From contig NZ_JAPWGM010000004.1 in NCBI RefSeq assembly GCF_027213715.1, positions 372,001 to 436,000 of the forward strand: a stretch of 64,000 bases of DNA. The letters run 5' to 3'. Shown piece after piece: positions 49,841 through 63,190 of the stretch. A model generated the notes under the pieces. That model did no database searches and was not told the DNA's origin. It saw nothing but the letters and a program-made list of their open reading frames with translations. The DNA is from Pedobacter punctiformis. GTDB lineage: Bacteria > Bacteroidota > Bacteroidia > Sphingobacteriales > Sphingobacteriaceae. How positions within the stretch are numbered: the stretch's first letter is position 1; every line of letters begins with the position of its first letter. A program made the position numbers and the translations under genes.

Positions 49841-50440
49841 ATGATTCCGGTTGGTTTTGAAAATAATTCTGTTTTGTTACTTGAATTTCAGGAAGGAAGC
49901 GAGCAGGCATTTGACCAGGTTTTTACACATTTTCATCCCTTATTGTGCGTATTTGCAGAACGTATTTTACATGATCAGACCACTGGTCAGGATATAGCCC
50001 AGGACAGTTTAATAAAAGCATGGAAAAAAAGAAAGGATTTCCCCAATTTCCCCCAGCTAAAATCATTTCTATATACCTGTGTACGTAATGCCTGTTTTAA
50101 CGAACTGGAAAAAGCGAAGGTAAAAACCAGATATCAATCTACACTGGAAAAAACTGAGCCTGCAGATGATTATAATCCACTTAAGGATATAATACATGCC
50201 GAAGTGGTCAGCCGGATTTTTGCTCAAGTAGATACCTTACCCGAACAATGCCGGAAAGTAATTCAAATGACTTTTGTGGATGGTAAAAGCCCAAAGGAAA
50301 TTTCAGATGAGTTAAATGTATCAGTAAGCACAGTGAACAGCCATAAAATGCGTGGACTGCAATTGTTGAAAGGCAAATTATCCGACCGGGACTTTCTGAC
50401 TGTAATCGTGATATTGCTTCCGGGTATCTGGAATAAATAA
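49841..50440 (+). CDS. ECF-type RNA polymerase sigma factor (SUS-associated)
   Basis: The protein has 199 residues. Region 2 contains FDQVFTHFHPLLCVFAERIL followed by GQDIAQDSLIKAWKKRKDF, and region 4 contains LPEQCRKVIQMTFVDGKSPKEISDELNVSVSTVNSHKMRGLQLLK. These match the Bacteroidota group of ECF sigma factors that control SusC/SusD loci. The FecR anti-sigma gene follows 83 bp downstream and the SusC gene carries an STN signalling domain, so ligand binding at SusC should release this factor to transcribe the locus. Confidence 0.92.
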   Translation: MIPVGFENNSVLLLEFQEGSEQAFDQVFTHFHPLLCVFAERILHDQTTGQDIAQDSLIKAWKKRKDFPNFPQLKSFLYTCVRNACFNELEKAKVKTRYQSTLEKTEPADDYNPLKDIIHAEVVSRIFAQVDTLPEQCRKVIQMTFVDGKSPKEISDELNVSVSTVNSHKMRGLQLLKGKLSDRDFLTVIVILLPGIWNK

Positions 50441-50523
50441 AGCAAATTCAAAAAAAATGTAAATTCTTTTGGACAAAACGAACAGGCTTCCTGTTATAGC
50501 TGTAAACCTCCCAAAAAGAATAA

Positions 50524-51714
50524 ATGGAAAAGCTTAATATACATGTTGTTACCCGGATTTCTGATTTAATTAATGGTTACCTGTTTAATCATTTGAGCGA
50601 TGCTGAAGTGGATGAATTACAAGTTTGGATAGATGCATCAGTTGATAACCGCCAAATATTTGAAAGCATAGTTAATGAATCAGCACTATCATACGGCGGA
50701 CAAGTATATGCCTCTGCAAATACAGTTTCGTCATTAACAGATGCAAAAAAGAAGCTTGGTTTTACTGCTAATACACAAGAACGCAAGCGAAGTGTAAAAC
50801 TTTGGATGAGTGTAAAAGTTGCTGCTGCAATAATTATAATCCTGGGTTTTGGGATTTATTTTTATGTGTCTTCCCCTTATTTCGGAGATCACCTGGCTAA
50901 TAATATTGCCACCGGTAAAAATATTGCAACCTTAACATTGGCCAATGGCAAAACCATAACACTTAGCGATGCCAAGACCGGAGTGATAATTAATGCGTCG
51001 AAACTGACCTATAACGATGGTACGGTAATTAAGACTGAAGATGTCAATAATCAGAATCCTCAGACTGAATCAGATGAACAAATTATAAAAACACCTGTTG
51101 GAGGCACTTATCAGATTGTATTATCAGATGGCACCAAAGTTTGGCTTAACGCCGCCTCGTCACTCAAATTTACTTCATCTTTTCATGGGTTAGTTACTAG
51201 AAAGGTAGAGTTGCTTGGCGGCGAAGCCTACTTTGAAGTAAGCAAAGATAAAGCGCATCCTTTTGTGGTGCACAATCAGGGGCAGGAAGTTGAAGTTTTG
51301 GGAACACATTTTAACATCAATAATTATTCAAATGATGGTACCTTAAGAACTACGCTGATAGAAGGATCTGTAAAGATTAAAAATATCGCATCGGAAAAAA
51401 CTGCTCTTTTAAAGCCCGGACAACAATCGGAAGTAAAAGGTATTGCTATTCAGCTTACAAATGTGGATACAGAACCTGTAGTGGCCTGGAAAAATGGTGA
51501 TTTTAATTTTAAAGATGAGAGTATTAAAGAGGTTATGAACAAACTGGCGCTTTGGTATAATATAGAAGTTGTATATGAAGGCCCGGTAAGTACAGAAAGA
51601 TTTAATGGAAAAATCTCACGTGCAAAGAATATTGCCGAAGTATTGCGGATGCTGGAGGGAACTAAAAGCATAAAATTTAAAGTAGAGGGAAGGAGGGTAA
51701 CCGTTATACAATAA
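50524..51714 (+). CDS. FecR-family anti-sigma factor
   Basis: The protein has 396 residues. The N-terminal cytoplasmic part (about 1-95) should bind the sigma factor. One transmembrane helix (about 97-118, VAAAIIIILGFGIYFYV) crosses the inner membrane. The periplasmic FecR domain has TPVGGTYQIVLSDGTKVWLNAAS and the LLGGEAYFEVSKD segment, and a C-terminal DUF4974-type domain ends with FKDESIKEVMNKLALWYN. It links the STN domain of SusC to the ECF sigma factor encoded just upstream. Confidence 0.93.
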   Translation: MEKLNIHVVTRISDLINGYLFNHLSDAEVDELQVWIDASVDNRQIFESIVNESALSYGGQVYASANTVSSLTDAKKKLGFTANTQERKRSVKLWMSVKVAAAIIIILGFGIYFYVSSPYFGDHLANNIATGKNIATLTLANGKTITLSDAKTGVIINASKLTYNDGTVIKTEDVNNQNPQTESDEQIIKTPVGGTYQIVLSDGTKVWLNAASSLKFTSSFHGLVTRKVELLGGEAYFEVSKDKAHPFVVHNQGQEVEVLGTHFNINNYSNDGTLRTTLIEGSVKIKNIASEKTALLKPGQQSEVKGIAIQLTNVDTEPVVAWKNGDFNFKDESIKEVMNKLALWYNIEVVYEGPVSTERFNGKISRAKNIAEVLRMLEGTKSIKFKVEGRRVTVIQ

Positions 51715-51749
51715 AATCTACTATGAATGGAATAACCTTATTTTAAAAA

Positions 51750-51780
51750 GTCAGGAACCGAATGAAACCGGAAACCTGAC
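51750..51780 (+). terminator. Hairpin in the fecR-susC gap
   Basis: GTCAGG (51750-51755) and CCTGAC (51775-51780) flank a 19-base loop that can also pair partly (CCG with CGG). No strong T-tract follows. It lies 36 bases after the fecR stop in a 168-bp gap, where it may partly end the regulatory transcript so that the structural genes use their own promoter. Confidence 0.4.
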
Positions 51781-51882
51781 CTCAGCTGGTTATTCATAAT
51801 TTAAATACATAAACCATCAACTTATTGCAATCCCCACACATCTGGACAATGACTGGGAGTGCATTTAAACCAAGCTTAACAA

Positions 51883-54800
51883 ATGTACATTTTTTACACG
51901 AAAAAACTGTGTGAGCATTATAGCCGCACAGCAAAAATTTTGCTGATCATGAGGTTAACTGCTCTGATATTACTAACGGCTATTCTGCAGGTTAGTGCAA
52001 ATACTTATGGACAAAAAATAACCTTGTCTGAAAAGAATACCGCTCTTGATAAAGTGTTTGATAAAATTCGCTTACAAAGCGGGTTTGACTTCGTTTTTAC
52101 CACCAGCACAATGAAGCATGCCAATCCTGTTGATATTAACATCAGGAATACGGATTTGAAAGATGCACTGAAACTGGTCTTCGAAAAACAACCCTTAAAC
52201 TATTCAATTGAAGGTAAATCCGTAATTATTTCGCCAAAAGTTAAATCGTTTCTGGATAAAATCGTTGATGCTTTCGATGCCATAGAGGTAAAGGGTAAAG
52301 TAATTGATGAAAACGGAAAACCTTTAGCCCGGGCAACTATAAAGATCAAAAATGAATACCGGTTTACCTATACCAATGACTACGGAGAATTTAAAATGAC
52401 CGGAGTTGATGAAAGTGCCACTTTGATCATCTCTTTTTTAGGTTATGAAAACAAAGAAATAAAGGCAGCAAAAGAATTGGGTAATATCCAATTGGTTGAA
52501 GCATCAGGCAAATTACAAGAGGTAGTTGTTTCTACCGGTTATCAGCTGATAGACAAATCAAAAATGACTGGATCAAGTGCTAAAGTTGAGGCCAAAGATT
52601 TAGTGATTAATGGAACAACCACTTTAGAACAATCCTTACAAGGAAAGCTCGCAGGTTTAGAAGTAGTCAATAACACAGGAATGGTTGGAACACGTCAAAC
52701 TGTTCGTGTACGGGGTACATCTACATTATTAGGTAGTCAGGAGCCCGTATGGGTGGTTGATGGGATTATTCAGGAAGATCCCTTACCTTTTAAAGCAGCC
52801 GAGTTAAATCGTTTTGGAAAAGATCCAAGTAATGAAACCGCTTTAAAGAATTTTGTTGGAAGTACCATATCCTGGTTAAATCCTTATGATATTCAGGATA
52901 TTACTGTGCTTAAAGATGCAGCATCAACTGCAATTTATGGTGTAAAAGCGGCCAATGGTGTAATTGTAATCAACACCAAAAGGGGCCAAACTGGCAGAGC
53001 GCCTTCTGTTACCTATAGCAATAGTTTTTCTACCCAATCCAAATATAGTTATGATAAATTGGAACTGATGAACTCTAAGGAAAGAGTGGATGTTTCCAGA
53101 GAGGTTTGGGAAAGAGGACTGATCTCTAGTTACAGCCTTGATGAGGTTGGTTTCCAGGGAATTTTAAAACAATACCTGGCCCAAAAAATTTCGTACGATC
53201 AGTTTAATTCCGGAGTTAAACAGCTTGAGGTAAACAATACCGACTGGCTGGATATTTTATTTCAAACGCCGTTGAATCAAAATCACAACATCAGTATTAG
53301 TGGTGGCGGTAATGGTGGCGGAAGTTATTTTGGTTCATTCGGTTATAATAATCAAAAAGGACTGGCAAAAGGAAATGGTTTGAAAGGTTATAATGGTAAT
53401 GTGAGTTTTACCAGTAATATCAGCAGTAAGCTTGTGGTTAGTGCCCGTATTTCAGGTAATTATAGTAAAACAGAGGGTTTTAAAGGTACAGATCCTTATC
53501 AGTATGCAACTTCAACTAACCGGGCTATTCCTGCTTATAATGAAGATGGTACCCTTTCTTATTATCGGTACGGTAATTTTCAGTACAATATTCTTAATGA
53601 ATTGGCCAACTCAGGTAACGATAACATTAAAACCAGTTTAAATGCTACCGTTAATGCCACGTATAAGCTTCCTGTCGGCTTTAGGTTTGAATCTGTTTTA
53701 GGTTTGTCTTATTCGGGCACCCATGGCGAAACTTATGCAACAGACCAAACCAATGAGATTACGGCCAGAAGAAGATATGAATATGGTGCATTTAGCCCGG
53801 AAACTTATGAATATAAATCATCGCCTTTACCAGTAGGCGGAGTGTTATCTACGCTGGAGAGCAGAAACACCAATTATACCTGGAGAAATGGATTAACCTA
53901 TGGTACAACCATTAATCAAAAACACAGTATTTCCGGGATGATGGGTATGGAATTACGCAGTAATATGTACCAGGGCTCGTTAGCGACTTCTTATGGATAC
54001 CTGCCAGGAATGGGTAAAATTATAGTAAACCCACCATTAACGACCTTAAACGGTACAACATATATTCCAAATAGTATTATTTATGATGCATCTACGCATA
54101 CCATAACCGATCAAAAGGCAAATTACGTATCTTATTATTTAACAGGTGGTTATACCTATGATAATCGTTATGTGTTTAGTGCAAGTGTGCGTGGCGATGC
54201 TTCAAACAGATTCGGACAGGATAAAAGAAGCCGCTTTAAGCCGGTATGGGCACTTGGCGCACGATGGAATGTAGCCAGAGAACATTGGTTTGATCAAAAT
54301 ACCTGGTTTAATGATTTTAGCATCAGAACGTCGTTTGGCCATCAGGGTAATGTGGCAGAAAATTATGGCCCTGACCTTATTACAAAAATGGGCGGTTTAA
54401 ACACGTTAACCGGCGAAGCATTACTAAATATTAGTAACCTTCCGTATACCAATCTTCGGATGGAGAAAACCCAGACCATAGACCTTGGCGTTGACTTTGG
54501 TTTCTTTAAAAACAGAGTAACCGGAAGTGTGGATTATTATCATAAGAAAAGTAAGGATCTTATTGTATTACTGGACGTTCCGTTTGAAAACGGCGTAAGC
54601 CAGATGCCGGTAAATAATGGTAATATGATCAATTCAGGCTTTGATCTGGCTTTAAATTTTATACCTGCCAGGAATGGAAATTTTACCTGGACAGTAGGCT
54701 TTAATTTCTCAAAAAATTATAATAAAGTTGAATCAAAGCTTTTGCCTAATCCTACCTGGAATAATGCAACCTCAGGAACTTATAATGTAGAAGGTTTCCC

Positions 54801-55470
54801 TGTATCTTCTTTTTGGGTATTTGATTATAAAGGATTAAATGCAACTACAGGATTGCCGATGTACAACATTCCTACGGGAACTGATAATTTAAATGCACGA
54901 ACAGATGCAAGTGCCTATATGGTTTATGGTGGAAAGTTAAATGCAGATTTTAATACCGGTATTAATACCAGTTTTAGATATAAAAATCTAACCCTGTCTA
55001 CAAACATGTACTTATCAGTAGGTGGTAAAAAAATACTTGCACCGGTATACACCGATATAACCAATAATACTCCAAATGAGTATAACAACCTGCCAAAAAT
55101 ATTGGTTGACCGATGGAGAAAACCTGGTGATGAGTTAACAACAAATGTGCCTGCATTACCTTATTTCGGAATACCTTTTATAAGTATTCCGGGCGAAGTT
55201 ACAACGTATTCACCTTATGTGTTATATAACTTCAGTACGCTGAGGGTTGTAAGTGCCTCGTACCTGCGCATTAGCAATATAAACCTGAGTTATACATTGC
55301 CTGATTCTTTTTGTAAGCGAATTTTAACCAAAAGCGTTACGCTGGGCTACTCGCTAAGCAACCCTTATACTTTTGTAAGTAAAGATTATAAAGGTTTAGA
55401 TCCTGAGGTGGCTTCCGGTAATCAACCTTTACCCCGCATACACGTGTTAAACATGGCAGTTACATTTTAA
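51883..55470 (+). CDS. SusC/RagA-type TonB-dependent outer-membrane transporter with STN domain
   Basis: The protein has 1195 residues. The order is an N-terminal signal region (long basic n-region, then MRLTALILLTAILQVSA), STN signalling domain (about 45-115, DKVFDKIRLQSGFDFVF), carboxypeptidase-regulatory-like domain (about 133-210, VKGKVIDENGKPLARATIKI), plug (about 225-370 with RVRGTSTL and PVWVVDGI) and the beta-barrel to the final aromatic-rich strand (HVLNMAVTF). It forms the gated import pore with the SusD lipoprotein encoded 10 bp downstream. The STN domain ties it to the FecR/ECF pair. The downstream genes point to a peptide-like ligand rather than a glycan. Confidence 0.95.
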   Translation: MYIFYTKKLCEHYSRTAKILLIMRLTALILLTAILQVSANTYGQKITLSEKNTALDKVFDKIRLQSGFDFVFTTSTMKHANPVDINIRNTDLKDALKLVFEKQPLNYSIEGKSVIISPKVKSFLDKIVDAFDAIEVKGKVIDENGKPLARATIKIKNEYRFTYTNDYGEFKMTGVDESATLIISFLGYENKEIKAAKELGNIQLVEASGKLQEVVVSTGYQLIDKSKMTGSSAKVEAKDLVINGTTTLEQSLQGKLAGLEVVNNTGMVGTRQTVRVRGTSTLLGSQEPVWVVDGIIQEDPLPFKAAELNRFGKDPSNETALKNFVGSTISWLNPYDIQDITVLKDAASTAIYGVKAANGVIVINTKRGQTGRAPSVTYSNSFSTQSKYSYDKLELMNSKERVDVSREVWERGLISSYSLDEVGFQGILKQYLAQKISYDQFNSGVKQLEVNNTDWLDILFQTPLNQNHNISISGGGNGGGSYFGSFGYNNQKGLAKGNGLKGYNGNVSFTSNISSKLVVSARISGNYSKTEGFKGTDPYQYATSTNRAIPAYNEDGTLSYYRYGNFQYNILNELANSGNDNIKTSLNATVNATYKLPVGFRFESVLGLSYSGTHGETYATDQTNEITARRRYEYGAFSPETYEYKSSPLPVGGVLSTLESRNTNYTWRNGLTYGTTINQKHSISGMMGMELRSNMYQGSLATSYGYLPGMGKIIVNPPLTTLNGTTYIPNSIIYDASTHTITDQKANYVSYYLTGGYTYDNRYVFSASVRGDASNRFGQDKRSRFKPVWALGARWNVAREHWFDQNTWFNDFSIRTSFGHQGNVAENYGPDLITKMGGLNTLTGEALLNISNLPYTNLRMEKTQTIDLGVDFGFFKNRVTGSVDYYHKKSKDLIVLLDVPFENGVSQMPVNNGNMINSGFDLALNFIPARNGNFTWTVGFNFSKNYNKVESKLLPNPTWNNATSGTYNVEGFPVSSFWVFDYKGLNATTGLPMYNIPTGTDNLNARTDASAYMVYGGKLNADFNTGINTSFRYKNLTLSTNMYLSVGGKKILAPVYTDITNNTPNEYNNLPKILVDRWRKPGDELTTNVPALPYFGIPFISIPGEVTTYSPYVLYNFSTLRVVSASYLRISNINLSYTLPDSFCKRILTKSVTLGYSLSNPYTFVSKDYKGLDPEVASGNQPLPRIHVLNMAVTF

Positions 55471-55480
55471 ACGTTAAAAC

Positions 55481-57055
55481 ATGAAAAAGATATTATACAT
55501 TTTGATGGCCACTGTAACAATATCCAGTGGTTGTAAAAAATTTCTGGAAGAACAAAGCCAGGATGAAGTAAGACCTTCCACCATTCAGGATTTGAATAGT
55601 GTGATGTCTGCTGACGGTTATCCATATTCCAGTACCAATAACGCTTCTACCCGCTTAAACCTGATGGCCGACATAATCACTGATGATGTGCAATGTTTCG
55701 GTGGCCAGGGGCAAATAAATTATGAGTTGGTAGCAAGACGTGGAAAAGGCCCTTATACCTGGTCAAGTCAGTTATTTGAAGACGTTTTATCAGGTGATGG
55801 GTTAACCAACACCTCAAATGTAAACTCCTGGGCTATTATTTATAAGCGCATAGCCGGTTGTAACGTCGTAATGAATTATGTGGATAAGGTAAGTGGCTCG
55901 CAGAGTGATAAAGAAAACCTCAAAGGACAGGCGCTTGCTATGCGGGGTTATTATTATTTTACGCTGGTTAATATATTTGGCAAGCCATATAACGATCCTG
56001 CATCCAAACCTGAAACCAGTTTGGGTGTACCCCTGAAATTATCAATGGAAGTAGGCGATGAGTATTTGGCAAGAAATACCGTTGCCGAAGTTTACACACA
56101 AGTGGAAGCTGATCTTAAACAGGCAGTAGAATTGTTAAAAAATAACCCAGGAACCTCAAGCAGTCCTTATAAAATGAATGAGGCAGCTGTATATGCTTTA
56201 TTATCAAGGGTGTATCTGTATCAGGAAAAATGGGACTTAGCAATTGAATATGCCAACAAGGGATTAGCAAAAAGATCTGTCCTGGCACAGTTAAGCTCAT
56301 TTGCTGCAGATGGAGGTTACTATAGTTTCAACAGTAGCTTTGCAAGTACCATTCCGCACGAAAACAGGATTTATGACGCAACCAGAAGTAAAGAGGTTTT
56401 GTGGAGTTATATTCCCAATCTTGCAAGTCAGGACGAATGGTTTAGAGAGTCGGGCATGACACCATCGTATACCCTTTATAAACCTGTGTATGCGCCTTCT
56501 GAAAGTTTAATGGCTTTGTATGAAACCCGGCCAACTACAGAAAATGCAGTTTATCTGGCTGATTTAAGAGCAAGGTTATACTTTAAATTTGTCTCCATAT
56601 TTACGTCAAAAGGTCTGGTTGTTATCAACTGTAATGGCGCTCCGGGTGGAGCAGGCCTAAGAGTAGCAGAGCTTTATTTAAACAGGGCTGAAGCAAATAT
56701 CAGAAAATTTATCAGTACGGGTAATGCCCAGTTTCGCTTGGATGCTTTAAAGGATATCAATGCCTTAAGAATGTCGAGATATGACATCCGCAAAGCTTAT
56801 GTTGCGATAGACATTGCAGATCCGACAGCCTTACTTAATTTCTATAAAGACGAAAGACGCAGGGAGTTTCCTTTTGAGGAGGGACACCGCTGGTTTGACC
56901 TTCGCCGTTATGGTATGCCTTCCATCAGCCACTTTTACGAAGAAGTTGCCGGAACGGGTCAGATTTATACCCTTGTTCAGGGCGATAGCCGTTATACATT
57001 GCCTATACCGGCAGCTGTATTGCAACGTAATGGCGTATTAACTAAAACTCCTTAA
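55481..57055 (+). CDS. SusD/RagB-family surface lipoprotein
   Basis: The protein has 524 residues. A lipoprotein signal peptide has its cysteine in ISSGCKKFLEE. The SusD fold is indicated by TPR-like helices (GQALAMRGYYYFTLVNIFGKPY, AAVYALLSRVYLYQEKWDLAI), LRVAELYLNRAEA and the C-terminal ERRREFPFEEGHRWFDLRRYG, a very conserved family signature. It sits on the SusC barrel and binds the substrate. The gene follows susC by 10 bp. Confidence 0.95.
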   Translation: MKKILYILMATVTISSGCKKFLEEQSQDEVRPSTIQDLNSVMSADGYPYSSTNNASTRLNLMADIITDDVQCFGGQGQINYELVARRGKGPYTWSSQLFEDVLSGDGLTNTSNVNSWAIIYKRIAGCNVVMNYVDKVSGSQSDKENLKGQALAMRGYYYFTLVNIFGKPYNDPASKPETSLGVPLKLSMEVGDEYLARNTVAEVYTQVEADLKQAVELLKNNPGTSSSPYKMNEAAVYALLSRVYLYQEKWDLAIEYANKGLAKRSVLAQLSSFAADGGYYSFNSSFASTIPHENRIYDATRSKEVLWSYIPNLASQDEWFRESGMTPSYTLYKPVYAPSESLMALYETRPTTENAVYLADLRARLYFKFVSIFTSKGLVVINCNGAPGGAGLRVAELYLNRAEANIRKFISTGNAQFRLDALKDINALRMSRYDIRKAYVAIDIADPTALLNFYKDERRREFPFEEGHRWFDLRRYGMPSISHFYEEVAGTGQIYTLVQGDSRYTLPIPAAVLQRNGVLTKTP

Positions 57056-57071
57056 CCTAAACCAGTTAAAC

Positions 57072-58010
57072 ATGAAAACGAATCAACAGCTTCATTTATT
57101 GATGCCAAAATATATTTTAGTGTTATGCCTGCTTTTTATGCTGGCTGCCTGTAAAAAAACAGAAGAAAAGCTAAGTCCAACAGAAAGGCCTGAATATGGG
57201 TATAGTGTACCACAAGGCAATAACAACTTTGATGACCGCATTGTTGCTTACCATAAACGCTGGGGAACTTATTTGCTTTATAAATTCAATGTTCAGGATT
57301 TTACCTGGCAAATTACAGGTTATGACAAATATTATAAAAGTGTAGGCTCCAATGAAGCTTACATTAATCAACAGCTCGATTTGCTGGATAATACATTTTT
57401 TAAATACTATCAGGATAGTACCCTTACCAAGTATTTACCCAGTAAGTTTTTTCTATGCAGTTCGCTCACCTTTCAAAATAAAAGGGTAGACGCCTTTGCA
57501 TTAACAAGCACCTTTATTGGTGGTTATGAGAGTTTTGCAGTGAATTGGGGCAATAAAGGGATTCTGAATATCAGTTCGCCGATTGATAGTGTAAGCATTT
57601 TCAGAGGTAATGTGAATTATAGCTTCCTTAAAATAATGAACCTTAAAGGCAGAATGGGCATGTCGGACGTTTTTCAAAGCATTACTGATTATGTAGCTAC
57701 AATAAGTCCAACCGCTCCGGCTACCAATCCAACCAATGCAGATCTTTATAAAAGAGGCTTTTTAGGCAATTCATCTATCTCTACTCCATCCAATCAAACA
57801 GATTGGTATAGCTACCTGCAGGTCATCTTATCTAATAAATATGCCAATCTCATCAATCCGGCAACCACCGCTACAGATGTTAGCGCAAAGGGCATTTTAA
57901 GTCCGGTAAAAGATGTAAACGGTTTGGTCAGACGTAAATATGATGCCATGATCAAGTTCTATAAAGAGGTTTATAATATTGACCTTCAAAAAATAGGAGA
58001 CGGGCTGTAA
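57072..58010 (+). CDS. Lipoprotein resembling SUS-associated zinc-metallopeptidase-like proteins but lacking HExxH
   Basis: The protein has 312 residues. Its lipobox is LFMLAAC (about residues 20-26), so it should be membrane-anchored. The region FDDRIVAYHKRWGTYLLYKFN plus FTWQIT, then LLDNTFFKYYQDSTLTKYLPSKFFL, resembles the putative zinc-binding peptidase lipoproteins (PF15890-like) that follow SusD genes. Those carry HExxH after the middle beta region. Here the corresponding stretch reads YSFLKIMNLKG, with no HExxH anywhere in the protein, while the following F-x-x-I-x-x-Y pattern is kept. It is therefore probably a non-catalytic relative that binds ligand on the cell surface. The family assignment is from memory of the pattern. 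Confidence 0.6.
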   Translation: MKTNQQLHLLMPKYILVLCLLFMLAACKKTEEKLSPTERPEYGYSVPQGNNNFDDRIVAYHKRWGTYLLYKFNVQDFTWQITGYDKYYKSVGSNEAYINQQLDLLDNTFFKYYQDSTLTKYLPSKFFLCSSLTFQNKRVDAFALTSTFIGGYESFAVNWGNKGILNISSPIDSVSIFRGNVNYSFLKIMNLKGRMGMSDVFQSITDYVATISPTAPATNPTNADLYKRGFLGNSSISTPSNQTDWYSYLQVILSNKYANLINPATTATDVSAKGILSPVKDVNGLVRRKYDAMIKFYKEVYNIDLQKIGDGL

Positions 58011-58015
58011 AGGAT

Positions 58016-59005
58016 ATGAAAAAGATAATTTTCTTCATCAGCCTCCTTTTGCAGGTGTATACCTCTATGGCTTCAGAACAGATGCTAATTAAAGGAAACA
58101 TTAAAAGTTTGAGCAAAATAACCGTTTCATTAAAAAACCTGGAAGGAAAATTAATGGCAGAAGCGCTTGTTCAAAAACAATCAGAATCCTTTGTTTTCGG
58201 CCCCATTTCTATAGTCCCTGATTTATATATGCTGACCATTGGAAAAACTACACAAAAAGTTTTTTTAACGAATACGACTGTAACCATAAACGGGTATTAC
58301 GATGACGCAGATCCTCAAAATAGTAATCTGGAGTTTACAGGTTTGGAACAACATTTAGAATTGATGACCTATATACCCAAGCGGATAAAGGATCAGGTTA
58401 GTCCTGAAGCTTTTTCCAGGTTGAACGGACAGCAATTGTCGGCTTTATCTTATTTGGTTAAAGTGGATAATTACGACTATAGTAAAACCTTTGTCGAAAA
58501 AATTCCGGTAGCCGATCTTAAATCTATATCAGCTCAGCACTTACTGAAAAAAGCCGATAGCCTGAAACAATTCTCAACAGGGATTAATGCGCCTGATTTT
58601 AGCCTGCCTGATGAAAAAGGTAAATTGGTTTCGCTGGCCGATTTTAAGGGACGTATTGTTGTACTCGATTTTTGGGCCTCTTGGTGCGGGCCTTGCCGCA
58701 GGGAAATGGAGGTTTTTAAAACTTTTTACAAAAATTACGAAGATAAGGTACAATTCATTAGTATCTCCCTGGATGAAGACCCTTCCAAGTATAAAACAGC
58801 TTTACAAGAAATGAACATCCCGTGGTTAAAGCTATGGGATAAAAGTGGTTTTGGTAAATCTGCTCTGCAGGCTAGCTATGGCTTTAAAGCAATTCCTTTT
58901 TGTGTTGTAGTTGATCCTGAAGGAAAGGTATTCAAAAGAAATATTATTAACGGCGTCGAATTGCAAAAAGCCCTGAATGCCATCACTAAAAATAAAGAAA
59001 TCTAA
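58016..59005 (+). CDS. TlpA-like thioredoxin with N-terminal DUF4369-like domain
   Basis: The protein has 329 residues. A signal peptide (ending YTSMAS) is followed by a beta-rich DUF4369-like domain (about 20-125), a helical linker, and an AhpC/TSA-type thioredoxin domain from about residue 190. The active site is LDFWASWCGPCRREME. The cis-Pro loop is GFKAIPFCVVVDPEG. It should act in the periplasm or at the outer membrane as a disulfide reductase or isomerase. It lies five bases after the lipoprotein gene in the SUS-like operon that also encodes a second thioredoxin domain at 61949. Confidence 0.9.
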   Translation: MKKIIFFISLLLQVYTSMASEQMLIKGNIKSLSKITVSLKNLEGKLMAEALVQKQSESFVFGPISIVPDLYMLTIGKTTQKVFLTNTTVTINGYYDDADPQNSNLEFTGLEQHLELMTYIPKRIKDQVSPEAFSRLNGQQLSALSYLVKVDNYDYSKTFVEKIPVADLKSISAQHLLKKADSLKQFSTGINAPDFSLPDEKGKLVSLADFKGRIVVLDFWASWCGPCRREMEVFKTFYKNYEDKVQFISISLDEDPSKYKTALQEMNIPWLKLWDKSGFGKSALQASYGFKAIPFCVVVDPEGKVFKRNIINGVELQKALNAITKNKEI

Positions 59006-59034
59006 CTTTTAAAACACTTAAGCTTACCTATAAT

Positions 59035-60771
59035 ATGAATATAATAAAATCAAAGGGATTGTTAATTTTTACCCTATGCATTCCCTTTTTTCAGTTGAAA
59101 GCACAATTGATTAAAAATACAGCTAAAGAAAACATTGCAGACTGGTATAATTTGTCAGCCGACCAGGATGGTGTATATGGTGCAGATGTTAATAAAGCGT
59201 ATCAATTTTTAAAGGATAAAGCCATTAAAAAGAAACCGGTAGTTGCCATTATTGGTTTTGGATTAGATACTGAACATGAGGATTTGAAGCAAGCTGTATG
59301 GCTTAATCCAAATGAAAAGGCAGATGGCAAGGATAATGACAAAAACGGGTGGGCTGACGATTTGCATGGCTGGAATTTTTTAGGGAATACCAAAGGCGAG
59401 ATGGTTGATGCCATTTCAAAAGTAGGTGACCGTGAATTTCTGCGCTTAAGAAGTAAGTATGAGGGCATATTTTGGACCGGACAGAATTATGTACGCTTTG
59501 ATGATGCTTTAAATAAGCCCGTTAAGGTAACAATACCTGTTGATAAAGCTGAGTTTGATTATTTTAAACTGTTGAGAGGAGAATCTCAGGCTGCTGCTGC
59601 ATCTAATACGTATCAATTTGCAAAGTTTATGAAATATTACCTTTTAAATGATTTCGATCAGGAGATTAAGAAAACTTACCCTGATGATTCGAAAATTACA
59701 GCAAAGGAATTTCGTAAGATAAAAATAGAAGAAAACGGGCAAACCGATTCGGTTAAAATGGTTGCACACATGTTTCTTACGTCTTTTATGGGTACAGCCA
59801 ATCCAACAGGAGGCCCCAATCAGCAACCCACTACGCTGGATAAGTTTAAGGAAAACATCATCAAAACTTTTCCGAATAGAAAGGAAAAGTATGATAACGC
59901 CCTTGCAGCCATTGTTGATGGACGTAAGGCGATTGAAGATAATCCGAATGACGTCAACCAGAAGAATTATGGTAACGGTAATTTATCCACAAGCAGCTCT
60001 TTTTCCAGCACGATGTGTGCAGGTATTATTGCCGCTGCCAGAGATAATCAATTGGGTGTAAATGGTATTGCACCAAATGCAGAGCTGATGTCGTTAAGAA
60101 TTTATCCTAAAACCGGAGAGATTTATTACAAAGATTTAGCCCTGGCTATCCGGTATGCGGTTGATCAGAAAGCAGATGTAATTTTATTGGGAGCACCTAA
60201 TTCAATTTATCCGCCAAATGAAGCTAAATGGGTAAACGATGCACTCCTGTACGCATCATCAAAAGGTATATTGGTTGTATCCCCCGTACTCGATCTTTCA
60301 AAAGATTTAAGTAAGCAATCCTTTTATCCCAACAAAAATATCTCTGCAGAAAACGAGCTTTCAAACTTTTTAACAGTAGCGGCTTCTGATAGTACAGGAA
60401 TGCCATTGAAAGATGGAAATTTTGGTAAAAAAGAGCTTGATGTTTACGCACCTGGGGTAAATGTTAGCTCTACTTATATGGGCAGTACATACCGCAAAGG
60501 CACCGGATCAATGCTGGCTGCCGCAAATGTTGCCGGTGTTGCAGCTTTAATAAAAGCTTATTATCCGCAGTTTACTGGCACTCAGCTTAGAAGTTTGATT
60601 GTTGGAAACGTTACATTAAGAGACAATGTTGAAGTAGAAAAGGAAACTTTTGTTAAAGACAGGAAAGTAACTGATTTATTTCTTTTTAATGAATTATGTG
60701 TATCAGGGGGGATTTTAAACGCTTACAAAGCCATCCTCGCAGCTGATGCGTTAAGCAAACAAAAACAATAA
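59035..60771 (+). CDS. Exported subtilisin-like (S8) protein with lost catalytic residues
   Basis: The protein has 578 residues and a signal peptide ending QLKA. The S8 framework is unmistakable: VVAIIGFGLDTEHEDLK, DKNGWADDLHGWNFLGN, MCAGIIAAARDNQLGVNGIAP, ELDVYAPGVNVSSTY and NVAGVAALIKAYYP. However, the usual D-S/T-G is I-G-F-G (Gly74 for Asp). The usual H-G-T-H is S-S-T-M (Ser324 for His). The A-G-N-D oxyanion region is replaced by SPVLD. The G-T-S-M-A segment reads GTGSMLAAANVAG, placing Met493 at the Ser position if aligned without a gap (Ser492 is adjacent). It is probably a pseudo-protease that binds peptide. It is the fourth gene after susC. Confidence 0.85.
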   Translation: MNIIKSKGLLIFTLCIPFFQLKAQLIKNTAKENIADWYNLSADQDGVYGADVNKAYQFLKDKAIKKKPVVAIIGFGLDTEHEDLKQAVWLNPNEKADGKDNDKNGWADDLHGWNFLGNTKGEMVDAISKVGDREFLRLRSKYEGIFWTGQNYVRFDDALNKPVKVTIPVDKAEFDYFKLLRGESQAAAASNTYQFAKFMKYYLLNDFDQEIKKTYPDDSKITAKEFRKIKIEENGQTDSVKMVAHMFLTSFMGTANPTGGPNQQPTTLDKFKENIIKTFPNRKEKYDNALAAIVDGRKAIEDNPNDVNQKNYGNGNLSTSSSFSSTMCAGIIAAARDNQLGVNGIAPNAELMSLRIYPKTGEIYYKDLALAIRYAVDQKADVILLGAPNSIYPPNEAKWVNDALLYASSKGILVVSPVLDLSKDLSKQSFYPNKNISAENELSNFLTVAASDSTGMPLKDGNFGKKELDVYAPGVNVSSTYMGSTYRKGTGSMLAAANVAGVAALIKAYYPQFTGTQLRSLIVGNVTLRDNVEVEKETFVKDRKVTDLFLFNELCVSGGILNAYKAILAADALSKQKQ

Positions 60772-60772
60772 A

Positions 60773-61924
60773 ATGAAATTAAAGACATTCATCATCCTGG
60801 TTTCGATAATTGCTTTTTTTTCAATAGGTGTTTCTGCGCAGGATAATTTTTCGGATACCATTCCTTACCAGATTGTTCACGATAAAATCGTTATTTCATT
60901 AAAAATCAATGGAAAGGATGCAAAGGTTGTTTATGATTCGGGAGGAAAACCATGGATTATCCAAAGTGAAGCACAGAGACTTGGTATCGGAATTAGTGGC
61001 CAAACAGGCGTTTCTGATATGAATGTTAAAACATCCTGGCAAAACAAGGGAAGTATTGCTGAGCTGGTTATAAGCAAGCATTGTAAGCGCATCAATCAGG
61101 AAACCATTATTGGGCCCAACAATGGCTCCTTTAAAACATTAGGGGTAGCCGGATTGATCAATAATGAGGTTTTTCAAGATGTTGTGGTAACCATCCTTTC
61201 CCGTGAAAATAAACTGGTAATTACGCCTTACAGACCCTCATGGGTAAAAAAAACAGATGGTATTCAGATTAAATCGCTGACTAATCATGCCTTTATGATA
61301 CCCTTACAAATCGGAGACCGGCCTGCAACTGCCATGTTTGATACCGGGTACGGAGGACTGCTGGTTGTAGGAAATGCCATGTTGAGAAGCCCTGACAGCA
61401 TTTCTTTTAAAAAGATAAACAGCTTATTTGGTATTAATGGTATTGGCATCAATGGAATTCCCGAACCTTCAAATTTTTATAAAGTACTGATTCCGAGCTT
61501 TCGCATAGGTCAAAAATTATTTAGCAACTATGGTACCGTCACCCATGCACTCGATAGATGTGTAATCGGAATAGACTTATTAAAGTACGGAAATGTTGTA
61601 TTGGATATCCCAAGGCAGGTATTTTATTTTTACCCGTTTGAACCGGAAACCGTAAACTTCGATGGGGTACCGAAAACCTGGAACCTGTCTGTATTACCGG
61701 TAAAAAAAGATCATTTTCAGGTCTCAGGCATCTGGGGAACTTTAAGAAAAGATGTATCGGTTGGCGATAAAGTGACAGGCATTAATGGTAAATCCTTAAC
61801 AGGTATTGCGCCCAGTCAGTTTGAAATAGAAAAAATGATGGACGATATTAAATCGGATCAAGCTTATCTCACCATCGAAAAAAATGGGAAAGAGATTAAA
61901 GTACCCATGAAACAAGTTAAATAA
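60773..61924 (+). CDS. Exported two-lobe aspartic protease-like protein with C-terminal PDZ-like domain
   Basis: The protein has 383 residues. A signal peptide ends IGVSAQ. Two retropepsin-like lobes are present, with KVVYDSGGKPWII (DSG, about residue 61) and TAMFDTGYGGLLVV (DTG, about residue 190). Both catalytic aspartate motifs are kept. The C-terminus (about 310-383) has VGDKVTGINGKSLTGI and a YLTIEKNGKEIKV strand, as in PDZ domains. It starts one base after the S8-like gene, and 24 bp separate it from a related, degenerate protein. Of the four protease-like proteins in this operon, this is the only one with intact catalytic motifs. It may be the processing enzyme of the system. Confidence 0.82.
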   Translation: MKLKTFIILVSIIAFFSIGVSAQDNFSDTIPYQIVHDKIVISLKINGKDAKVVYDSGGKPWIIQSEAQRLGIGISGQTGVSDMNVKTSWQNKGSIAELVISKHCKRINQETIIGPNNGSFKTLGVAGLINNEVFQDVVVTILSRENKLVITPYRPSWVKKTDGIQIKSLTNHAFMIPLQIGDRPATAMFDTGYGGLLVVGNAMLRSPDSISFKKINSLFGINGIGINGIPEPSNFYKVLIPSFRIGQKLFSNYGTVTHALDRCVIGIDLLKYGNVVLDIPRQVFYFYPFEPETVNFDGVPKTWNLSVLPVKKDHFQVSGIWGTLRKDVSVGDKVTGINGKSLTGIAPSQFEIEKMMDDIKSDQAYLTIEKNGKEIKVPMKQVK

Positions 61925-61948
61925 CCATAAAAGCAAATTGTAAATCAA

Positions 61949-63190
61949 ATGAACATAAAATACAATAAATTCCTGTGGTTTGTTTTTATAACAGTAACCT
62001 GGAGTTGCAGTAGCGCATTTGCACAGAAAAACACTTTTGAAGAAGTAATGCCTTATAAAGATATAAATGGTTATATGGTCATCAAGGCAAATGTAGGTGG
62101 AACCGAAGGAGATTTTTTGTTAGATCCCCGTGGAGCTATTGCCCTTACGGAATCGGCTGCAGCACAACGCAAGATTAAGGTAGACCCTTCTACAACCAGT
62201 TATCCCAGAACCGGGTATCAGTCTATTGGTAAAGGAACAGCATTTGGATTCTTTATTGGTAAAAATGTATATCTGAAAGACATTTCTGTTATGGTACTTA
62301 AAGAGGAGCCCTTACTTAAAAAGCTGGGTGTTGATGGGGTCATTAATTTTAGTGTTTTTACCAATGCCGTGCTAACGATTAACAGCAAGATTAAGACCTT
62401 CACAATCTCCTCACCATACAGACCTTCTTATATTAAACTCGCAAACAGGGCCGATGCCCAGTTAATTTCAGGGGGGGTGGCTATCACTGCTGATTTAAAT
62501 GGAAAGTTAACCAATTTCCTGGTTGATTTTTATGAAGAGCATCCATTATTGCTAAGTAAGCAACTGGCTAAAGAAATAATTCCAAATGCGCAGCAGCAGG
62601 TTAAAGAATATAATAAAATAGCTGTTCCAAAAGTTAAACTGGCAAACGAGGTATACCTGAAGCCCGAAGCTTATACCAGTTCGGAGCAAGCCGTTTCTGT
62701 AATTGGAAAAGAGCTTTTAAATAAAGGAATTATTTCATTTGATCTGGATAAAAACAAGTATTATTTCCAGCCGTTTGGACAAGGCGAAGAATCTGGAGCC
62801 CCAGCTCTAAAAAAGGATGAGATTGTTGCTGTAGCCGGGAAAGTAAATTCCATAGACCGGGACTATTTTTTAAATGAAGTTTACGATTACAGGAATAACA
62901 AAGAATGGAAAACCAAGGGAAACAAGCCTGTAGTGGTCGATTTCTGGGCAACCTGGTGTGGGCCTTGTATGCGAATGATGCCAATAATGGAAGAATTGGC
63001 GTTAAAGTATAAAGATCAGATTTTGTTTTATAAAGTAAATGTAGATAAGGAAGGGGAGTTAAGAGATGTATTTAAAGCTAATGCAATCCCTTTAATGATT
63101 TTTGCGCCCCTTGATGGCAAGATAACCACTGAATTAGGTGCTGATACTAAAGAAAAAGTAGAAGAAAAATTGAAAAAACTGATTTTGTAA
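61949..63190 (+). CDS. Degenerate aspartic protease-like domain fused to a thioredoxin domain
   Basis: The protein has 413 residues. A signal peptide ends SSAFAQ. The N-terminal 270 residues follow the layout of the preceding protein (KANVGGTEGDFLLDPRGAIALTE, then TNFLVDFYEEHPLLLS), but the D-T/S-G motifs are DPRG and DFYE, so neither lobe can be catalytic. From about residue 310 a thioredoxin domain begins, with VVVDFWATWCGPCMRMMPIMEEL and the cis-Pro loop NAIPLMIFAP. The fusion may hold a peptide while reducing its disulfides. It is the last gene of the operon and is followed by a terminator at 63253. Confidence 0.85.
   Translation: MNIKYNKFLWFVFITVTWSCSSAFAQKNTFEEVMPYKDINGYMVIKANVGGTEGDFLLDPRGAIALTESAAAQRKIKVDPSTTSYPRTGYQSIGKGTAFGFFIGKNVYLKDISVMVLKEEPLLKKLGVDGVINFSVFTNAVLTINSKIKTFTISSPYRPSYIKLANRADAQLISGGVAITADLNGKLTNFLVDFYEEHPLLLSKQLAKEIIPNAQQQVKEYNKIAVPKVKLANEVYLKPEAYTSSEQAVSVIGKELLNKGIISFDLDKNKYYFQPFGQGEESGAPALKKDEIVAVAGKVNSIDRDYFLNEVYDYRNNKEWKTKGNKPVVVDFWATWCGPCMRMMPIMEELALKYKDQILFYKVNVDKEGELRDVFKANAIPLMIFAPLDGKITTELGADTKEKVEEKLKKLIL

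Follow-up and report, generated by a model that had tools for sequence, protein, structure and literature searches.

A SUS-like locus of Pedobacter punctiformis with thioredoxin-fold proteins and conserved protease relatives lacking catalytic motifs

In this study, a locus resembling the starch utilization system (SUS) was analyzed in a 64,000-nucleotide stretch of the Pedobacter punctiformis genome (contig NZ_JAPWGM010000004.1, positions 372,001 to 436,000; hereafter the window, whose first letter is position 1). The locus is a compact operon on the + strand (49841..63190), in which the genes for a sigma factor, FecR, SusC and SusD are followed by those for a lipoprotein (P0001), a redoxin (P0002), an S8-like protein (P0003), an aspartic protease (P0004) and an aspartic-like/thioredoxin fusion (P0005), all of them full-length open frames. 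P0001, P0003 and P0005 lack catalytic motifs of the proteases that they resemble, and these losses are common to all 7 loci of the same type (type A). Combined with open genes and low ratios of nonsynonymous to synonymous substitutions (dN/dS), this supports the view that the proteins are maintained as non-cutting proteases and, since relatives keep them dead, these enzymes probably still do a job. On balance, it seems probable that the operon encodes a TonB-dependent system that captures and processes a polypeptide, and that the dead proteases have been retained in it as functional components that do not cut.

Lost and retained catalytic motifs

The pseudo-subtilase P0003 (59035..60771, +) has the S8 fold, as indicated by its PF00082 match (3.2e-25; 89.5 bits against a cut-off of 21.8) and by a structure model that Foldseek aligned to subtilisins (probability 1.00, template modeling score by target ~0.6). 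Its triad columns, normally Asp, His and Ser, hold G, S and M; a Ser adjoins the Ser column, and Asp and His are clearly gone, as a preliminary description of this DNA, made from the letters alone, had claimed. In a comparison of 28 S8 proteins, the triad was absent from all 7 of type A and intact in the 21 others, so that the losses are a feature of the type A branch only. By that description, intact homologues in most genomes would have been a sign of local decay: S8 relatives outside type A are indeed intact (21/21), whereas within the type A branch the losses are fixed. The Asp column is occupied by Gly in 7/7 type A proteins and the His column by Y, S or F, while the Ser column still holds Ser in the protein of locus L116. 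The oxyanion Asn is retained in one of the 7 (21/21 in the others), the oxyanion and S1-wall positions are mostly replaced, and the Asp and His columns are 249–256 residues apart, compared with 215–227 in the others. All seven triad-less proteins form one clade (support 100/100, 566 of 868 columns, tree without L088), in which that of L116 lies on a long branch; the tree program warns of long-branch joins. When 385 genomes of the class were searched for the triad-less S8 proteins, three matches (E up to 1e-90) came from outside the family, and each of these carries the standard S8 motifs. The earlier suggestion that a peptide is held on inactive protease folds is thereby weakened for the S8 protein, as far as holding in its cleft is concerned: with its active-site region rebuilt, we doubt that P0003 simply holds a peptide in the manner of a frozen enzyme, and a partner or sensor role, by analogy with the one proposed for CspC of C. 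difficile, is judged as likely.

An intact-looking aspartic protease, claimed earlier for the locus, was recognized in P0004 (60773..61924, +), which keeps the two motifs of clan AA (D-S-G and D-T-G), with a PF13650 match below the cut-off (7.7e-4) and a weak C-terminal PDZ match. Six type A loci together encode 10 such proteins, P0004 included, and D55, G57, D190 and G192 are invariant in all of them, and the aspartic protease of L116 also keeps both motifs. The fusion P0005 (61949..63190, +), in turn, combines a thioredoxin domain (4.5e-20) with a degenerate aspartic-protease domain; this N-terminal part is 21–23% identical to P0004 (E about 1e-12), and its motifs read DPR and DFY, which departs from the two-motif pattern of clan AA. 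The claim that this protein had lost both aspartic motifs therefore stands for the Gly residues, both of which are gone, but not for the Asp residues, both of which remain. Across the fusions, Gly is lost from both motifs in 7/7 and both Asp are retained in 6/7, P0005 included. The fusions constitute one clade of 7 (support 100/99, tree without L032 and L088), with which P0004, on a long branch, groups (97/81) apart from the other type A proteases; to these it is only distantly related (23–26% identity, about 22% to those of locus L008). The window's only intact-looking protease may, therefore, have a different origin. Among solved structures, the profile of the aspartic proteases gave a single match with E below 0.01, a weak one to 9iy9_A (1.2e-5).

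The lipoprotein P0001 (57072..58010, +), a pseudo-Mx1 protein, had no Pfam match and no TIGR04549 match in the NCBIfam scan when searched alone, and the protease-like character attributed to it became visible through the profiles of its relatives. A profile of 7 relatives matches, at 7.1e-5, a ‘substrate import-associated zinc metallohydrolase lipoprotein’ of the PDB (chain 9urd_A), and one relative is above the PF15890 cut-off (27.9 vs. 25.6 bits). Compared with TIGR04549 (cut-off 75 bits), three of four HExxH-less relatives scored 18–46 bits and one had no match, while two active family members scored 295 and 308 bits. Judged by these profiles, P0001 is a distant branch of the TIGR04549 family. 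The metallopeptidase motif HExxH is lacking in P0001, as stated in the preliminary description, in 47/47 aligned lipoproteins, and in 4/4 further, more distant members (L116–L119); an active homologue in the genome of the window DNA (own genome), L105, has HEYTH, and the weaker match L120 is an active member with HEFAH. Lipoproteins of the P0001 type were matched in 64 of 350 genomes of the order (E up to 1e-4), in 37 of them with E below 1e-20, and in 3 of 395 genomes of the class (at 1e-8). Of the weaker matches of the order search, only some were taken in (G178, G300, G266 and G137), together with G415 from the class search, and the resulting count of 51 loci leaves out L120 and L088 (the same locus as L027). 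L091 (G340), a related locus that is not of type A, has its lipoprotein gene divided between two frames, probably as a broken copy.

Both P0002 (58016..59005, +), a periplasmic redoxin of the TlpA/ResA-like kind (Pfam Redoxin, 1.2e-22), and P0005 match thioredoxin-fold families and carry WCGPC, in agreement with the first account. In 49 of the 51 loci, a CxxC-containing thioredoxin-fold gene is located no more than 8.5 kb away and in the same orientation; in the own genome, 6 of 30 SusD loci (two of the 6 being type A loci) have a redoxin gene at such a distance, a contrast that is only indicative, because detection differed (seed proteins for the 51 loci, PF08534 for the own genome). The latter comparison used 30 of 31 SusD places (the remaining one being a further fragment of a place already included) and 22 of 24 redoxin places (two are below the cut-off). 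The own genome also encodes two DsbD homologues, which could supply electrons.

Locus types, selection and co-divergence

The 47 aligned lipoprotein loci were divided into four types: type A, that of the window (6 loci), type B (11 loci, with redoxin, S8 and aspartic protease genes), type C (15 loci and 3 of a shorter form, with one or more DUF5117-type zinc metalloproteases, a thioredoxin and an S9 peptidase) and type D (12 loci, with thioredoxin-fold genes and no match to the protease seeds). L116, found later, is the seventh type A locus. Two type A loci are present in the own genome, the window locus and L008, whose SusC, SusD, lipoprotein, redoxin, S8 protein and fusion are 51–59% identical (FecR 41%, sigma factor 28%); L008 has two aspartic proteases in place of one. 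In 4/7 type A loci (L008, L080, L083 and L085), the fusion gene is followed by one for a tail-specific (Prc-like) S41 protease, which is lacking in the window; that of L008 (L008:15396-17462) was identified by Pfam, those of the three others are 55–72% identical, and a relative lies near the type D locus L095. A zinc metalloprotease bearing HEVGH is encoded in L116 and is likewise missing from the window. A gene of a protease seed family is present in 37 of the 51 related loci, and, outside type A, the proteases are, by their motifs, mostly intact. In type C, the first metalloprotease (DUF5117/DUF4953) has HExxH in 18/18 loci, the three shorter ones included, and its second paralogue lacks the motif in 15/15; a profile search with the HExxH-less paralogue gave no solved relative at 0.01. 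As far as motifs tell, three protease classes in these loci thus include fixed members that are devoid of catalytic motifs and lie next to, or not far from, relatives that are intact.

The dN/dS values, which were calculated for pairs of loci and carry no significance test, are low for the dead proteins. In the closest type A pair (L008 and L083) they are, roughly, 0.077 for the S8 protein and 0.066 for the fusion, the other eight genes ranging from 0.071 to 0.201. In three closer type C pairs, they amount to 0.22, 0.09 and 0.08 for the dead metalloprotease and 0.22, 0.11 and 0.07 for the active one. The preliminary description had named strain-specific decay as the finding that would speak against it; instead, the residue losses proved conserved in 7/7 type A loci, with open genes and low dN/dS.

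Co-divergence was examined through correlations of pairwise identities, which are descriptive because the locus pairs share loci. In type C (105 pairs), SusC, SusD and the lipoprotein are mutually correlated with rho 0.77–0.87 (lipoprotein and SusC 0.87, lipoprotein and SusD 0.80), and the HExxH-containing metalloprotease and its HExxH-less paralogue diverge together (rho 0.83), whereas the surface trio and the metalloproteases reach only 0.27–0.41, and the lipoprotein and the neighboring protease 0.28, despite adjoining genes. Loci L009 and L064 share 0.87, 0.92 and 0.91 identity in SusC, SusD and the lipoprotein and only 0.50 and 0.38 in the metalloproteases, while the pattern is reversed between L064 and L074 (0.66, 0.53 and 0.54 as opposed to 0.93 and 0.91). 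This looks like a swap of SusC, SusD and the lipoprotein as a surface cassette between loci that keep their own protease genes, which places the lipoprotein with SusC and SusD. In type B, the lipoprotein correlates with SusC and SusD at 0.72–0.74, with the periplasmic genes at 0.58–0.66 and most highly with FecR (0.91, 28 pairs). A general rule by which surface genes diverge faster than periplasmic ones was considered and failed: the periplasmic mean was higher in 49 of 156 pairs (type A 7/15, type B 2/36, type C 40/105).

Operon organization and possible function

The operon opens with the gene for an extracytoplasmic function (ECF) sigma factor (49841..50440, +; Pfam Sigma70_r4_2 3.9e-13, Sigma70_r2 1.7e-10), just before the range 50524–63190 first assigned to the locus, which holds for FecR to P0005. 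It is followed by the FecR anti-sigma factor (50524..51714, +; FecR 1.4e-20, FecR_C 2.7e-20), the SusC/RagA TonB-linked barrel with an N-terminal STN signaling domain (51883..55470, +; TIGR04056 619 bits, Pfam STN and Plug) and the SusD/RagB lid lipoprotein (55481..57055, +; SusD-like_3 1e-29, SusD_RagB 1.5e-14); the earlier gene calls and family assignments agree with these positions and matches. A plug-containing SusC barrel adjoining a SusD-family lipoprotein marks the locus as SUS-like. It cannot be classed as a polysaccharide utilization locus, since no carbohydrate-active enzyme was matched among its 9 proteins in Pfam or 8 in NCBIfam, and, FecR apart, no iron-related family was matched in the same scans. 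FecR is named after its role in the regulation of ferric citrate uptake, and an STN domain on SusC is its usual link to the transporter. From this domain and the adjacency of the genes, the operon is predicted to be regulated by its own sigma/FecR pair; FecR and sigma genes are also found beside most of the other loci in the collection, irrespective of the proteases encoded there. N-termini inspected by eye suggest that P0001 is a lipoprotein and P0002–P0005 are Sec-exported soluble proteins. A role in anti-phage defense was considered and dismissed: among P0001–P0005, only P0003 was matched in PADLOC, to a generic subtilase model. The operon adjoins a gene of the opposite strand (27328-48369, -) for a 7013-aa protein with many alike repeats at a spacing of 121 residues, probably a giant surface protein, whose C-terminus, we presume, resembles a gliding-type sorting domain of the type IX secretion system (T9SS).

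In the system that we favor, SusC, SusD and the pseudo-metallopeptidase lipoprotein would form a surface capture unit, from which a putative polypeptide ligand would be drawn into the periplasm by TonB-driven import. There, P0002 and the thioredoxin domain of P0005 would act in the reducing direction on disulfides of the ligand and P0004 would cut it, while the pseudo-subtilase and the pseudo-aspartic domain, both presumably inactive, could join the active proteases in complexes as binding or regulatory partners. Loading of SusC may be signaled through STN, FecR and the sigma factor, so that the operon is switched on. The capture role fits the lipoprotein best because in type C its divergence tracks that of SusC and SusD. 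A precedent, by analogy, for a protein ligand of this lipoprotein family is the iron capture system of Capnocytophaga canimorsus, which uses serotransferrin as an iron source according to an excerpt of PMC5429918. A bolder version, put forward only tentatively and regarded as rather doubtful, is a polypeptide utilisome based on stable pairings of an active protease with a dead one. Dead metallo, serine and aspartic versions would each have become a permanent subunit across the related loci, the first of these functions being surface capture together with SusC and SusD, while the other subunits would hold the thioredoxin-unfolded ligand and present it to an active periplasmic partner.

Several observations weigh against the capture-and-processing system. 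The 51 loci were gathered by likeness to HExxH-less seeds, and their count therefore describes the lipoprotein branch and not the whole family; the structure model of the lipoprotein is unusable (predicted local distance difference test (pLDDT) 33), so that its fold link rests on sequence profiles, and that of P0003 is moderate (pLDDT 59). In the L008/L083 pair, dS is 1.2–3.9, and values above 1 make the dN/dS estimates rough. Cassette exchange is not general, as periplasmic genes are better kept in only the 49 pairs mentioned above, and the type A lipoprotein diverges in step with the dead proteases no less than with SusD (0.48–0.91 over all genes), with no separation. The remodeled active-site region of the S8 protein need not bind peptides, the two Asp kept in P0005 make residual activity possible, the L027 fusion lacks most of its second lobe, and L116 has no separate redoxin. 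Moreover, type A is rare, its 7 loci being found in 5 of 399 family genomes.

Four other explanations were weighed. The locus could be related to the system by which Capnocytophaga captures iron, with an iron or heme protein docked, its metal extracted and imported, and the protein itself not serving as a nutrient. According to an excerpt of PMC5429918, the Riemerella homologues of IcsC, IcsD and IcsE are upregulated under iron limitation (log2 3.1–3.8) and that of IcsE is annotated as being of the TIGR04549 type, but the iron capture system has further genes (icsA, icsF-H), and no protease or redoxin is named among its genes in the excerpt. The window locus gave no iron-related Pfam or NCBIfam match besides FecR. 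We regard such metal piracy as unlikely. Somewhat less probable still is the sensing or maturation of a peptide made by the cell itself or by a neighbor, in which the dead proteases would be receptors and the output sigma activation instead of nutrition. The FecR/sigma pair with STN on SusC and the remodeled S8 active-site region fit such sensing, as does the pseudo-subtilase CspC of C. difficile, a proposed germinant sensor (excerpt of PMC6636752); however, intact-looking proteases accompany the dead ones, and FecR/sigma genes flank most related loci regardless of the proteases.

Import of a glycan or another small compound in the usual SUS manner, with protease-fold proteins that have nothing to do with polypeptides, would agree with the cargo generally known for well-studied SusCD systems (examples in an excerpt of PMC7618045). 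It is nevertheless improbable, given the lack of carbohydrate-active enzymes among the Pfam and NCBIfam matches and the protease seed-family genes in 37 of the 51 loci. Finally, the catalytic residues could have been lost under relaxed selection, with the locus on its way out, as the rarity of type A, the shortened L027 fusion and the split L091 lipoprotein gene might suggest. This explanation is very improbable and was rejected: in none of the 7 loci is the frame of a dead protein broken, the Asp-to-Gly change in S8 is common to all of them, the triad-less S8 proteins form a clade, and the losses are conserved, with dN/dS of only 0.066–0.077 for the two dead proteins in L008/L083.

If the capture-and-processing system is real, these SusCD loci provide defined surface and periplasmic parts for studying the uptake of disulfide-bonded proteins, of which, to our knowledge, little is known in Bacteroidota. 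Well-studied SusCD systems import glycans. Because otherwise comparable operons range naturally from those with intact proteases to those with dead ones, they would also allow the worth of a protease fold to be tested once it no longer cuts.

Comparison with known systems

No paper describing the system was found among the matches listed in the open-licence literature, which is weak evidence of its absence from print. The nearest known loci are those of the TIGR04549/PF15890 lipoproteins, including IcsE, which in an excerpt of PMC5429918 is mapped to a Riemerella gene annotated as a substrate import-associated zinc metallohydrolase. These have the same FecR, SusC, SusD and family lipoprotein, as in the active L105 (HEYTH) and L120 (HEFAH); the window branch differs from them in lacking HExxH in every member examined, in its scores below the cut-off and in the thioredoxin and protease genes that follow. 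Glycan loci encode SusCD utilisomes, in which surface lipoproteins are united with SusC and SusD (excerpt of PMC7618045); among the relatives of the window locus, the three co-diverge in type C. The window locus differs in having protease folds and redoxins and no match to a glycan enzyme. By sequence, the solved chains nearest to the window SusC are 8ypt_C and 8ypu_C, followed by RagA. RagAB of Porphyromonas gingivalis is a SusCD-type transporter implicated in protein uptake (excerpt of PMC11817032), and dead proteases and redoxins are features of the window that go unmentioned for RagAB in that excerpt.

Active and triad-less subtilases acting in one pathway are known from CspB, CspA and CspC of C. 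difficile (excerpt of PMC6636752). Those are, however, spore germination proteins of another phylum, and the similarity of P0003 to the CspC model NF040808 is weak (7.7e-10; 37.8 bits, the cut-off being 675). An inactive metalloprotease paralogue stands beside an active one in MPP alpha/beta and in PqqF/PqqG; these belong to other protease families and resemble the pair of HExxH-containing and HExxH-less metalloproteases of the type C loci.

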